Shown: positions 4,461 to 40,064 of the stretch, piece by piece
Numbering within the stretch: position 1 is the stretch's first letter
Layout of the letters: each line of letters starts with the position of its first letter
IMG/VR virus record: IMGVR_UViG_3300035703_000022
Span: 1 to 64,000 of that record
Length of the DNA stretch: 64,000 nucleotides
Source: a virus
Reading direction: 5' to 3' (one strand)
Notes under the pieces: generated by a model
The model's database searches: none
Told to the model about the DNA's origin: nothing
The model's input: the letters and a program-made list of their open reading frames with translations, nothing else
Position numbers and translations under genes: made by a program

Positions 4461-4489
4461 TCTATAAACTAAAAAAGGGGAATTGTCAA
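4461..4489 (-). promoter_or_regulatory. Sigma70-like promoter nested in a terminator
   Basis: On the minus strand: -35 TTGACA (4484-4489, perfect), 17-nt spacer containing TTTTTT, -10 TATAGA (4461-4466, 4 of 6). The -35 is part of the inner palindrome of the terminator at 4475-4506. It would drive 4168-4443. Confidence 0.6.
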
Positions 4490-4506
4490 TATTGACAAAG
4501 CCCCTT
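4475..4506 (-). terminator. Long terminator hairpin with 16-nt palindrome
   Basis: On the minus strand AAGGGG...CCCCTT encloses a perfect palindrome TTGTCAATATTGACAA, followed by TTTTTTAG. It lies after the stop of the gene at 4542-4754. The palindrome also carries the -35 box of the next promoter on each strand. Confidence 0.7.
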
Positions 4507-29713: not shown

Positions 29714-32038
29714 ATGACATACTTTAGAGAATTACCAAATCTTCAAGTTCTCAACAGAACAAAAAATATAACCTCGAATGATGAAAAACTTATTATTAAA
29801 AATATCTTCAAAAGGGCAAAACTCAGAGAAGATATTATCTCCATAGCTTCTGCTTTTGAATATTATACGATTACTGAGAATGAAAGACCTGAACAAGTTG
29901 CAGAAAAAATTTATGGAGATCCAAATCTAGATTGGGTGGTATTAACGACTAACAATATTATAAATGTTCAAGAACAATGGCCATTGAATGGCAATAGTTT
30001 CAATAAGTACATGTTGGAAAAATATGGGTCAGAAAGTGCTTTTACTGAAATTCACCATTACGAATCTATTTCTACAAGAGATTCTTTTGGTAGAGAAGTT
30101 TTTCCTAAGGGATTAATTCTCGATGAGGCTTTTTATAATAGCCCAGAATATGAAGATTTAGATGAGATTCCCCCAGGAATAACGTTTCCTCCAATCTACC
30201 TTGATGGGACCCAAGCAGTATTAACACCAACAGTAGGAATTGGTTATAGTGTAACCTCTATTCAAATTACAAATCCTGGATTGGGATATCAAAATCCTCC
30301 GACCATTACAATTTCAAATCCTCCAATTACTAGTAATGCTTCAGCTGATTGTTTAATAACAGATTTCAGAGTATCTTCTATTGTAAATTTAGTAGGAGGT
30401 CAGGGTTACAATAACAGTCCAACAGTAACATTTTCAAATCCAACTCCATCAGTACAAGCTACTGCTGAATGTGATATAGGTGATGGAGTTGATTTTGATA
30501 AGGTTTCATCAATTAAAAATCTTGTTGGTGGTGCTGGATATGGAGTTACATCCCCATCGGTAACATTTTCAAGTTCCGACAGACTTTTAGCTGGACAATA
30601 TGTAAATCAATCGACATCAACAATAGGCACTGATATTGAAGGATTTTATATTGATTCAACGGGTACATATCTATATACATCCAATTTTACTGGGGACAAT
30701 CAAATTAAACAACACACTTTGACTACAAGTTGGGATGTTTCTACAATAGAACTAACTTATGAATTGGATGTAAGTGAGGATTTTTCCTACACGACTAGTG
30801 TTGAATTCAAACCAGATGGAACTATAATGTATGTAAGTGGTGGAAGTGGGCCATTTTATAAAATTGTTGCATATAATCTCTCAACTCCATGGAATATTTC
30901 TACTGCGATAAAATGGAATGAGGAATTTATAAGTTCTCCTAGCAGATTTAGATTCAAATTAGATGGATCTAAATTATTTGTTTTAGATTCAAATAATAAT
31001 ACTATTCAAGAAATACCTCTTGCAACTTCATGGAACATTACTTCAGTACAACCTGAAAGTGATAATCTAAATCTTACATCTGTTATTGGAGACGATGGTA
31101 TTCTTGGATTTACTTTCAATTCTAATGGAAATAAACTATTTGTTACAAGTCAAAACAATTCCAACATTTATGAATTTGATTTGGAACCATGGCAAATAAA
31201 CTCTGCGGTTTACAAATATACTTTTTATGTTGGAAATAGAATTTCATCTCCATCCGACATTGTTATAGACACCGATGTTGATAAATTTTTAATTGCCGAA
31301 GGTGAAGGAGATAAAATTTTCGAATATAACATATCATCTAGAGCAAAAGGAATTGCACAAGTAACAAATGGATCTATTAGTAGTATTGACATCATAAATC
31401 CAGGACTTGGTTACACAATAGCTCCAACAATTACAATTGGAGCTCCATATCCAGAAGTTACTGCTACTGGTACAGCTAATTTGACAAATGGAATTGTCAC
31501 TAGTATTACTGTAAATGATTCTGGGTTTGGGTATATTAATCCACCATCAATATCTATTGAAAATGCTCCGATATCAAGAAAACTGGTAATATCTTTTAGT
31601 ATGTCAAATACAGGTATCGGAACAGTTAGGATTGTCGATGGAGGGTCAAATTATACCTCAACTCCAACAATTACTATAAGTCCACCTCAAGATATTGTAA
31701 ATGTTGAAGTCGGTGAATTGTATAGTCAAAATCAAACTACGTGGAAATGGAACGGAACGAATTGGCAAGAAAAGATAACTGAAGAATTTCAGTATTTTGA
31801 TCCAACAACAAATTCTATAATTAGAATACCTGGATCTGAACTTTGTATTCCAATAACAAATTATGAGTATGAATCAAATATAAATGATAACAAAAGACAA
31901 ATATTAATTTTAAAACCAGAATATCTATCGGTGTTTATTAGTGATTTTAAAAATATCATGACATATGATCCAGATGATCCAAATTATATTAATGATAAAC
32001 TAAAAACTACATATAATGAAAAAATAATGAAGATATAA
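29714..32038 (+). CDS. 53: Baseplate wedge gp53 with large beta insertion
   Basis: 774 residues, T4 gp53 being 196. The N-terminus matches gp53: YYTITENERPEQVAEKIYGD, PNLDWVVLTTNNI. The C-terminus matches its end: NDNKRQILILKPEYLSVFIS and DFKNIM. Between them about 500 residues are inserted: three GxGYxxPPTITI repeats (about 185-280), a propeller-like stretch (about 290-540) with four motifs SW(D/N)xST, PWNIST, SWNITS and PWQINS, three more GYxxPP repeats (about 545-650), and a short Trp-rich domain (TTWKWNGTNWQ). gp53 joins wedges into the ring; the insertion probably extends outward on the baseplate. Confidence 0.85.
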   Translation: MTYFRELPNLQVLNRTKNITSNDEKLIIKNIFKRAKLREDIISIASAFEYYTITENERPEQVAEKIYGDPNLDWVVLTTNNIINVQEQWPLNGNSFNKYMLEKYGSESAFTEIHHYESISTRDSFGREVFPKGLILDEAFYNSPEYEDLDEIPPGITFPPIYLDGTQAVLTPTVGIGYSVTSIQITNPGLGYQNPPTITISNPPITSNASADCLITDFRVSSIVNLVGGQGYNNSPTVTFSNPTPSVQATAECDIGDGVDFDKVSSIKNLVGGAGYGVTSPSVTFSSSDRLLAGQYVNQSTSTIGTDIEGFYIDSTGTYLYTSNFTGDNQIKQHTLTTSWDVSTIELTYELDVSEDFSYTTSVEFKPDGTIMYVSGGSGPFYKIVAYNLSTPWNISTAIKWNEEFISSPSRFRFKLDGSKLFVLDSNNNTIQEIPLATSWNITSVQPESDNLNLTSVIGDDGILGFTFNSNGNKLFVTSQNNSNIYEFDLEPWQINSAVYKYTFYVGNRISSPSDIVIDTDVDKFLIAEGEGDKIFEYNISSRAKGIAQVTNGSISSIDIINPGLGYTIAPTITIGAPYPEVTATGTANLTNGIVTSITVNDSGFGYINPPSISIENAPISRKLVISFSMSNTGIGTVRIVDGGSNYTSTPTITISPPQDIVNVEVGELYSQNQTTWKWNGTNWQEKITEEFQYFDPTTNSIIRIPGSELCIPITNYEYESNINDNKRQILILKPEYLSVFISDFKNIMTYDPDDPNYINDKLKTTYNEKIMKI

Positions 32039-32043
32039 AAAAA

Positions 32044-32061
32044 GGAGGGTTTTATCCCTCC
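32044..32061. terminator. Bidirectional terminator between gp53 and gp32
   Basis: GGAGGG-TTTTAT-CCCTCC with AAAAAAA on the left and TTTT on the right, so it works in both directions between two convergent operons. Confidence 0.85.
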
Positions 32062-32071
32062 TTTTAGTTTA

Positions 32072-32995
32072 TCAGGACTCGGCCAGTTTCTGGAAGTAAC
32101 TCAGAGCATCATCTGCATCTTCATCATCTTCTTCCTGAACTGCAGGACGAGCAATCTCAAAGGAAGGAGTAGAACGTTTCGGAGCGGATTCACCGCGACG
32201 TTCTGCTTCCCATTGTTCATCCTCTTCAATGGTCTCAGGATCCTGTCGTGCGGGAGTTTTTGCACCCAGGACATAATCCAGACGTTTTTTCAAGTCCTCA
32301 TAGGTTTTGAAGTTACTAGCAGCACTGAACTCATTGAGATCATTCAGATTCTTGTAGATACGTTCAAGTTTGTCATCATCATCTAGAAGAACGGAAGGTT
32401 TTTCAAACTCAGACTTGTCATAGTTCCAGTAACCTTCAACCTTACGAATCTTCAGTTTGAAGTTAGCACCAGTCCAGAAATCAAAAGGATTGACGGCTTC
32501 TTCATCTGCAAACTGTGGTTGCATCGCTTCTGTAATCTTATCATAGATCTTCTTACCGAACTTGTAGAGGAAGACACGACCCTCGTTCTCTGGGTGTGCA
32601 GGATCACTCACCACATAAATGTTGGCGTAGTAAGAGAGTTTGCGTTTCTGTTTCCGAGCAATCTCCTTATCACGATCAGATCCAGAGTTCCACAGAACAC
32701 GATTGTGTTCAGACACAGGATCTTTCTGTCCCAGAGTCGTCAGAGAGTTTTCGATGTACCAACCACCAGGGCCTTGGAATGCATGACTCCAAACTTGGGC
32801 CCAAGGAAGTTCACATCCTTCGGGTGCAGGGAGGAATCGGATGACTGCATAACCATTTCCGGCTTTGTCTACTTCGGGTTTCCAGAAGCGGTCATCAGCA
32901 CCACCTTCTCCACTATTCAGTTTTTCGACTTGTTTGATCAGTTTTTCAGTCAGTGAACCAGCACGGGACTGTTTCTTGAGATCAGCAAAAGACAT
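32072..32995 (-). CDS. 32: Single-stranded DNA-binding protein gp32
   Basis: 307 residues, T4 gp32 being 301. Matching blocks: DKAGNGYAVIRFLPAPEG, WSHAF, GGWYIENSL, KRKLSYYANIYVVSDPAHPE, NEGRVFLYKFGKKIYDKI, WTGANFKLKIRKVEGYWNYD. The basic start (KKQSRAGS) replaces the LAST motif for cooperativity and the acidic end is present. The zinc subdomain is changed: T4 His64 is kept as H71, but the three Cys ligands (C77, C87, C90) are not present (IENSLTT, DPVSEHN). It coats ssDNA in replication and recruits gp59. Driven by the promoter at 33040-33068. Confidence 0.95.
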   Translation of the reverse strand: MSFADLKKQSRAGSLTEKLIKQVEKLNSGEGGADDRFWKPEVDKAGNGYAVIRFLPAPEGCELPWAQVWSHAFQGPGGWYIENSLTTLGQKDPVSEHNRVLWNSGSDRDKEIARKQKRKLSYYANIYVVSDPAHPENEGRVFLYKFGKKIYDKITEAMQPQFADEEAVNPFDFWTGANFKLKIRKVEGYWNYDKSEFEKPSVLLDDDDKLERIYKNLNDLNEFSAASNFKTYEDLKKRLDYVLGAKTPARQDPETIEEDEQWEAERRGESAPKRSTPSFEIARPAVQEEDDEDADDALSYFQKLAES

Positions 32996-39089: not shown

Positions 39090-39722
39090 TCACCACTCCA
39101 GAGCTTCTGCAACTGAAGGGAATTGTTGTTTGAATACCTCTTTACAAGCAAGTGCGATATCCATGTGTTCTTTCTGAGTTCCATTGGATGAACGCAGATT
39201 GATATAATGAATCCAACTACGACAAGAGCCTGTCATGTAGATACGAGTTGGAGTTGCGAGAGGAAGTACAAAACGAGCACACTCCTTAGCAACACCTTGA
39301 CTCAGAAGATAGTTATAGACCTCCTGAGCGTCCCTGAAGAGGTCTTGAATCATTTTGTTCATCACGAAGACCCTTTCTTCATCCATGTCATCAATCGAGT
39401 TCTGGCGGTTCTTGGTGTCCTGCCTACGCAGTTCTGGCACGGGAATGTCAGTACTCAGCAGATTTGTATCTGCATATCTTTGAGAAAACTCCTGGAATGT
39501 GAAGCTACGATGACGAAGAATCTGGGCTGCAATACCACGATTTGTTTCAATCTCAAGAGTCATAGAAGACTGCTCAAACACAGACCAATGATTATGCTTA
39601 ATACAATAAGCGAGCAACTTGGCATAGTTTTCGTTGTCTTGATTCGCAGGATTAGAAACTCGAGCAATATACGCCATTGTTTTTTCTGCATCGGGAGTGA
39701 TCGAAATAAGTTTTACAGTCAT
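39090..39722 (-). CDS. thyX: FAD-dependent thymidylate synthase ThyX
   Basis: 210 residues. The ThyX signature RHRSFTFQEFSQRY is at 70-83, with HNHWSVFEQSSMTLEIE before it and NLRSSNGTQKEHMDIALACK near the end. It makes dTMP from dUMP using methylene-THF and FADH2 in the cytoplasm, supplying phage DNA synthesis. Length is normal (about 210-230). A small gene lies between it and the nested terminator/promoter at 39920-39958. Confidence 0.95.
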   Translation of the reverse strand: MTVKLISITPDAEKTMAYIARVSNPANQDNENYAKLLAYCIKHNHWSVFEQSSMTLEIETNRGIAAQILRHRSFTFQEFSQRYADTNLLSTDIPVPELRRQDTKNRQNSIDDMDEERVFVMNKMIQDLFRDAQEVYNYLLSQGVAKECARFVLPLATPTRIYMTGSCRSWIHYINLRSSNGTQKEHMDIALACKEVFKQQFPSVAEALEW

Positions 39723-39730
39723 TTAATTTC

Positions 39731-39898
39731 TCAGTCAGGGTATCCATCGTCATCGAAGACCTCATCATAATCGGAGATGTGGCCTTCTGGTTTGGGGGTT
39801 AGTCTATAAGAATCTGGATCAGAATAAATTTCTGATTTAAGACATTCTACAAGTGACTCCAGATTTCTTACAATCAATTTAAGTTTTTCTCTATCCAT
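39731..39898 (-). CDS. Small acidic protein upstream of thyX
   Basis: 55 residues: MDREKLKLIVRNLESLVECL, KSEIYSDPDSYRLTPKPEGH, then DEVFDDDGYPD. N-terminal helix and very acidic end. First gene after the nested promoter at 39920-39948. Function unknown. Confidence 0.65.
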   Translation of the reverse strand: MDREKLKLIVRNLESLVECLKSEIYSDPDSYRLTPKPEGHISDYDEVFDDDGYPD

Positions 39899-39919: not shown

Positions 39920-39948
39920 ATTATAGACAAAAAAAGAGGGGGAGTCAA
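39920..39948 (-). promoter_or_regulatory. Strong sigma70 promoter nested in a terminator
   Basis: On the minus strand: -35 TTGACT (39943-39948), exactly 17 nt, -10 TATAAT (39920-39925). The -35 is in the hairpin loop and the spacer is the 3' arm plus TTTTTTT of the terminator 39935-39958. Drives the 55-residue gene and thyX. Confidence 0.8.
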
Positions 39949-39958
39949 GTCCCCCTCT
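39935..39958 (-). terminator. Strong rho-independent terminator
   Basis: On the minus strand AGAGGGGGA-CTTGAC-TCCCCCTCT (9 bp) followed by TTTTTTTG. It ends the riboswitch operon (39963-40393). Confidence 0.9.
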
Positions 39959-39962
39959 AATA

Positions 39963-40064
39963 TTAAGCAACTTGAGGTTGCTTTGCCATATTCAGTTGTG
40001 CATTATGAAGGAGTTGTTCCTTCTTTGCCTTTTTCTTAAGATAACGAACGAAGTAAGTGTTCAT
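39963..40064 (-). CDS. Tiny basic peptide
   Basis: 33 residues: MNTYFVRYLKKKAKKEQLLH, then NAQLNMAKQPQVA. A strong GGAGG sits 8 nt before the ATG, which overlaps the stop of the gene upstream (ATGA). Basic amphipathic helix. Function unknown. Confidence 0.6.
   Translation of the reverse strand: MNTYFVRYLKKKAKKEQLLHNAQLNMAKQPQVA

Follow-up and report, generated by a model that had tools for sequence, protein, structure and literature searches.

A predicted dual-use terminator-promoter element at gene borders of a cyanophage-like genome and of other phages

Four candidate elements in the window

The window, the whole stretch of DNA analysed here, comprises the initial 64 kb (64,000 nucleotides) of a 138,529-base IMG/VR virus record, a 138.5-kb genome sequence that was joined from stretches. 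Among annotated genomes, those of T4-like cyanophages are closest to it. All four nested sites described below, and the genes that surround them, are on the minus strand. The main element, at 39920-39958 (-) (AGAGGGGGACTTGACTCCCCCTCTTTTTTTGTCTATAAT), lies downstream of a short ORF of 33 aa (39963-40064, -, read from the sequence), the stop codon of which (39963-39965) ends 4 nt before a hairpin. Downstream is a phrog_878 gene of 55 aa and unknown function (39731-39898, -), which starts ~21 nt past the -10 box of the element and is followed by thyX (39090-39722, -).

The RNA of this element is predicted to fold as AGAGGGGGA-CUUGAC-UCCCCCUCU, a terminator hairpin (39935-39958, -) with a 9-bp stem and a 6-nt loop (CTTGAC in the DNA) at -17.0 kcal/mol; none of 200 shuffled sequences is equally stable. 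The U-tract consists of seven T (39929-39935), the first of which is base-paired at the bottom of the stem. The same DNA holds a promoter (39948-39920, -) that matches TTGACW-N17-TATAAT exactly, as scored with E. coli weights. Its -35 box, TTGACT (39943-39948), is formed by the end of the loop and the first base of the 3' arm; the spacer is filled by the 3' arm and the U-tract, and the -10 box, TATAAT (39920-39925), follows 17 nt past the -35 box. The exact promoter match and the stability of the fold bear out the initial annotation, which had described a terminator hairpin with T7 that holds a strong promoter. An Rfam 15 scan of the window at the gathering score returned three tRNAs only and no family match at the element.

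A spacer of 17 nt is found at all four sites, and the U-tract begins 11 to 20 nt after the start of the -35 box. The second element (2960-2993, -) has its -10 box, TATATT, at 2960-2965, TTTT at 2965-2968, a hairpin of -14.6 kcal/mol at 2967-2993 and a -35 box, TTGACT, in the 5' arm (2983-2988). In the third (4461-4506, -), TATAGA (4461-4466) follows a T6 tract (4471-4476) and a hairpin of -16.8 kcal/mol (4475-4506), with TTGACA in an inner palindrome (4484-4489). The fourth (1894-1930, -), the weakest of the set, combines TATAAT (1894-1899), T5 (1905-1909) and a hairpin of -12.4 kcal/mol (1907-1930) with TTCACG in the loop (1917-1922). All are located between minus-strand genes in intergenic spacers of 67-98 bp, and they share a geometry while the stem sequences differ. 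The claim that these three further borders have the layout of the main element holds for the spacer, but each is individually weaker: the U-tract at 2960 has four T only, the weak point at 4461 is the -10 box TATAGA, and at 1894 it is the -35 box TTCACG.

The window also encodes a perfect bidirectional terminator, AAAAGGAGGG...CCCTCCTTTT (32037-32068), which holds no nested promoter; the genes on either side (29714-32038, +, and 32072-32995, -) converge on it.

Frequency and conservation across phages

Taken alone, this genome does not have more overlap between terminators and promoters than chance would give at a loose threshold: four nested sites in 138.5 kb compare with a shuffle mean of 2.47, and 19 of 100 shuffles reach four, so the difference is not significant. 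At a strict threshold the same genome has two nested sites against 0.43 expected, which is borderline. A loose terminator caller was abandoned because it produced too many false hairpins, and a folding-based caller was used instead. In a caller-free test, any hairpin over the spacer was counted for all TTGA[CT] promoters; for most genomes the excess was just ~1.3- to 3-fold, with a higher value for the Lactococcus phage WRP3. The low excess is probably due to the location of most such sites in coding DNA, and this test was set aside. The comparison with shuffled sequence that was suggested at the outset was thus run in several forms, and chance is rejected across phages, though not from this genome alone.

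Among 192 non-redundant terminators from 80 thyX cyanophage loci, 29 contain a nested strong promoter, versus a shuffle mean of 0.88 (maximum 3 in 200 shuffles), a count that is inflated by orthology as the set includes the thyX border itself. The -35 starts in this set concentrate at -20 to -9 of the U-tract, with few elsewhere. Nested sites elsewhere in the thyX loci and in single genomes agree with this excess. S-SKS1 has 8 nested sites in 46 terminators (null 0.05), P-SSM2 has 3 in 46 (null 0.15) and, at the strict threshold, WRP3 has 5 in 32 (null 0.20). No nested elements were detected at the strict threshold in S-PM2, Syn9, S-CRM01 or T4. In S-SKS1 (NC_020851), one nested element (28025, -) is upstream of the photosystem II D1 gene (psbA), after a baseplate wedge gene, and another (33264, -) is upstream of a gene for a high-light-inducible protein.

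We also scanned IMG/VR for the pattern TTGAC-T7-TATAAT, which is blind to hairpins, and then counted hairpins of -8 kcal/mol or better. Of the 117 matches listed whose spacer contains T7, 83 have such a hairpin, versus 9.8 after shuffling of the flanks; of those listed for an A7 control, 3 of 122 do. For the same T7 pattern in bacterial genomes, 13 of 117 matches listed have a hairpin and 89% do not. The IMG/VR counts are fractions of the matches listed in a sample dominated by cyanophages, a label assigned roughly, according to which of 11 reference genomes (seven from cyanophages) matched best. The spacer is exactly 17 nt in 74 of 84 hairpin matches listed, though the pattern permitted other lengths. 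The elements listed adjoin at least 32 downstream and at least 40 upstream protein families; nearly all are between same-strand ORFs by a lenient test, and the median intergenic spacer is 83 nt. The consensus of 115 distinct elements with 17-nt spacers comprises a purine-rich 5' arm, TTGAC, a pyrimidine-rich 3' arm, a T-run and TAWAAT.

A subgroup of the nested elements (L135, L160, L164, L192, L199, L207, L211 and L212) contains a further stem-loop, CTGGCAAAA(T)CCAG, which is conserved and lies inside the element, immediately ahead of TTGAC. Members of this subgroup often follow an hsp20-like gene, and L160 is S-SRM01/S-SKS1-like. This inner sequence varies much less than the outer stem does, and it may therefore be bound by a factor or have a second role.

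At the thyX border, hairpin, T-tract and -10 box are present in the same layout in 55 of the 74 cyanophage loci with enough upstream sequence. The stems differ among these loci, and elements fold at a mean of -12.0 kcal/mol with their own arms versus -8.4 kcal/mol after exchange of 3' arms between elements. Given that exchanged arms fold worse, the two arms change together. The genes around the element vary, with seven upstream and six downstream families. From the end of the -10 box to the next ATG the distance is 21 nt in most thyX loci (L013-L092), which implies a leader of ~14 nt and fixed length. A leader palindrome located between the -10 box and the ATG is striking in the present genome and a few loci, but it is not general and was set aside.

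The other borders are kept to varying degrees, in orthologous loci that do not count as independent events: for the 2960 border, 24 of 29 homologues have the nested layout (many are near-duplicates), and for the 4461 border four of four do, two of them distinct. At 1894, the hairpin, a short T run and TATAAT are kept in a subset of homologues only, and the -35 box is mostly poor (usually TCCACA). It is these homologous borders, as compared here at the sequence level, and not the single genome, that decide against chance. With the IMG/VR counts and the range of adjoining protein families, they indicate that the predicted composite terminator-promoter is under selection and reused.

Predicted function and alternative readings

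We propose that each site is a dual-use composite of the promoter early stem-loop (PeSL) type, with a terminator and a promoter in one sequence, and we assign this reading a probability of roughly 0.85. RNA polymerase leaving the upstream gene would make the hairpin and U-tract and terminate there. The same duplex would act as a promoter for the host sigma-70-type holoenzyme, with TTGAC placed either in the loop, as at 39920, or in the 5' arm, as at 2960, and a start ~7 nt past the -10 box; use of the host holoenzyme would place the promoter in the early class. The upstream unit would be insulated and the downstream unit started separately, all within 67-98 bp. Such nesting may be possible because a 17-nt spacer of low sequence requirement just fits a 3' arm of 8-9 nt and a U-tract of 7-8 nt; a promoter spacer can, it seems, house the 3' half of a terminator. 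Because the predicted start is past the -10 box and the hairpin is upstream of it, the downstream transcript would lack the hairpin, and the hairpin would consequently not attenuate its own promoter. Both termination and initiation are predictions. That a single element closes one operon and opens the next, as the initial annotation had suggested, is well supported as far as sequence can tell, by conserved geometry, paired changes in the arms, orientation of the T-tract and same-strand neighbors. The annotation's further suggestion, that passing polymerase or the RNA hairpin may influence re-initiation, is a hypothesis, to be read with the predicted absence of the hairpin from the downstream RNA. 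The layout also offers a simple sequence signature by which to search cyanophages for operon borders; the promoters and terminators of these phages are mostly unmapped.

Two of the four sites may not be doing both jobs, judging from their sequences: 2960, at which the U-tract is nearly missing both here and in the homologues, and 1894, with its poor -35 box. For 2960, a reading to be taken seriously, if still a tentative one, is that the dyad is an operator, or an RNA hairpin that acts where the upstream mRNA ends (its 3' terminus), rather than a terminator. The homologues (L564-L590) keep GACCCTTGACT...AGTCAAGGGTC, whereas in several of them the tail is merely TTATAGT. However, the arms continue to pair via G-U, as would be expected of RNA (in the window, for instance, TTGAC pairs with GTTAG), and the layout resembles that of the composites in the Vibrio T4-like phages KVP40 and nt-1. 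Across 2960-2993 and these homologues the -35 dyad is kept with hardly any T-tract, so that it may be an operator, or a terminator that is weak rather than full.

Alternatively, the element could be mainly a recombination cassette, as proposed for PeSLs, that is, a repeated joint for exchange of gene modules. At the thyX border the element does stay while the seven upstream and six downstream gene families change, and PeSL-mediated shuffling has been published for other T4-like phages, according to the account given in PMC4503421. Yet functional constraint alone would likewise keep the element in place, the copies in the window differ in stem sequence, unlike the near-identical ones of KVP40 and nt-1, and Puxty et al. 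(PMC4503421) considered PeSL-driven acquisition unlikely for S-PM2. We consider this explanation unlikely.

Somewhat less probable is a polymerase hand-over, in which an enzyme, having let go of its transcript at the U-tract and standing ~13 bp short of the new start site, would re-initiate without leaving the DNA and so couple the two units. In vitro, post-terminational E. coli polymerase stays on the DNA, diffuses and re-initiates nearby (PMC6978380, PMC11347151), and the release site here is inside the promoter. Recycling spans hundreds of base pairs, however, so nesting would be unnecessary, and a polymerase at rest there might just as well obstruct the promoter. Re-initiation by recycling is yet to be demonstrated in vivo (PMC6978380, PMC11347151), and we found no case with a cyanobacterial polymerase. 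More doubtful again is the specific idea that nesting is a device for recycling enzyme between successive early units, with the geometry of the loop -35 box and 17-nt spacer tuned for it.

The dual-use composite is also favored over pure compaction or chance, by which AT-rich genomes with short spacers would place a T-run and TATAAT after a hairpin without selective value; this is very unlikely, for while the count in the present genome (four versus a null mean of 2.47) and the short spacers (median 83 nt among the IMG/VR matches listed), in which nesting is the tightest packing, would fit it, the large excess across phages, the one preferred phase in cyanophages with few tandem or intermediate cases, the joint changes of the arms and the lack of a hairpin in 89% of the bacterial matches listed for the same promoter pattern all speak against it. 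Chance is largely refuted, and compaction may be the reason why nesting was selected.

Comparison with PeSLs and other known systems

PeSL composites are reportedly present in the Vibrio T4-like phages KVP40 and nt-1. Those of RB49/phi1 have also been described, it is said, and PeSLs reportedly terminate transcription and form mini-circles. In PMC4503421, PeSLs are described as "composite conserved promoter-terminator motifs" of T4-like phages, with Arbiol 2010 and Comeau 2014 cited as sources. The initial annotation had considered the element not to be described as a general phage module. This was wrong in kind, given the PeSLs published for T4-like phages, as cited there, and the nested copies that our scan recovered in KVP40 and nt-1.

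KVP40 (NC_005083) and nt-1 (NC_021529) each contain 11 nested, near-identical copies of GGGTTGM...CCCTT...TANNAT, every one of them on the record's plus strand, with none in a reversed control. Presumably these are the published PeSLs. As in the window, the -35 box is inside the hairpin, the T-tract is in the spacer and the -10 box comes after. The Vibrio phage copies have the -35 box in the 5' arm or inner palindrome, whereas in the main cyanophage type TTGAC occupies the loop, the spacer holds a complete T7 and the stem sequence varies among copies.

The PeSLs of RB49 are like the elements in the window in that a terminator stem-loop and a strong sigma-70 promoter occur together in one short spacer and are repeated. 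The geometry differs: 15 of 60 strict terminators in RB49 have a strong promoter with the -35 box downstream of the U-tract (tandem) and none is nested, whereas in the window the -35 box precedes the U-tract. At one site in RB49 (3162, -) the layout is reversed: a highly stable terminator hairpin contains, in its loop, the -10 box of TTGACA-16-TATAAT, which would place the promoter's own start within the terminator. WRP3, a phage of the 949-like group that is not T4-like, has nested elements with TTGACA/T-17-TATAAT, and tandem forms occur in it as well.

Our strict count of zero nested sites in S-PM2 agrees with the few PeSLs that Puxty et al. (PMC4503421) found in this cyanophage; other cyanophages have many, which contrasts with the sparse picture drawn there. 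In the literature searched we found no description of nested terminator-promoters or of composites in WRP3, and a search for promoter maps of cyanophages brought up nothing about the element. RNA polymerase recycling (PMC6978380, PMC6978322, PMC11347151) offers a possible physical link from a terminator to a nearby promoter. The recycling studies used separate elements in vitro, with no test of a nested element found in the literature; the elements reported here are natural templates in which the distance between terminator and promoter is zero.

The features of PeSLs can be compared with those of the main element one by one. A strong sigma-70-like promoter is present (TTGACT-N17-TATAAT, by the E. 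coli-based model), as is, by sequence, an intrinsic-terminator-type stem-loop (-17 kcal/mol, T7), although the U-tract at 2960 is weak. The composite is compact and between genes, in spacers of 67-98 bp, with a geometry that exceeds chance by a wide margin across phages. Repetition of one near-identical sequence within a genome is not seen, as the four copies in the window differ in their stems. The element appears to work like a PeSL, and its filing as one hinges on how strictly copy identity is taken. Nesting is not new to T4-like phages. What looks new is its extent in cyanophages and a Lactococcus phage, together with the version that has the -35 box in the loop and U7 in the spacer, and this extends the PeSL idea past Vibrio and enteric T4-like phages and outside the T4-like phages.
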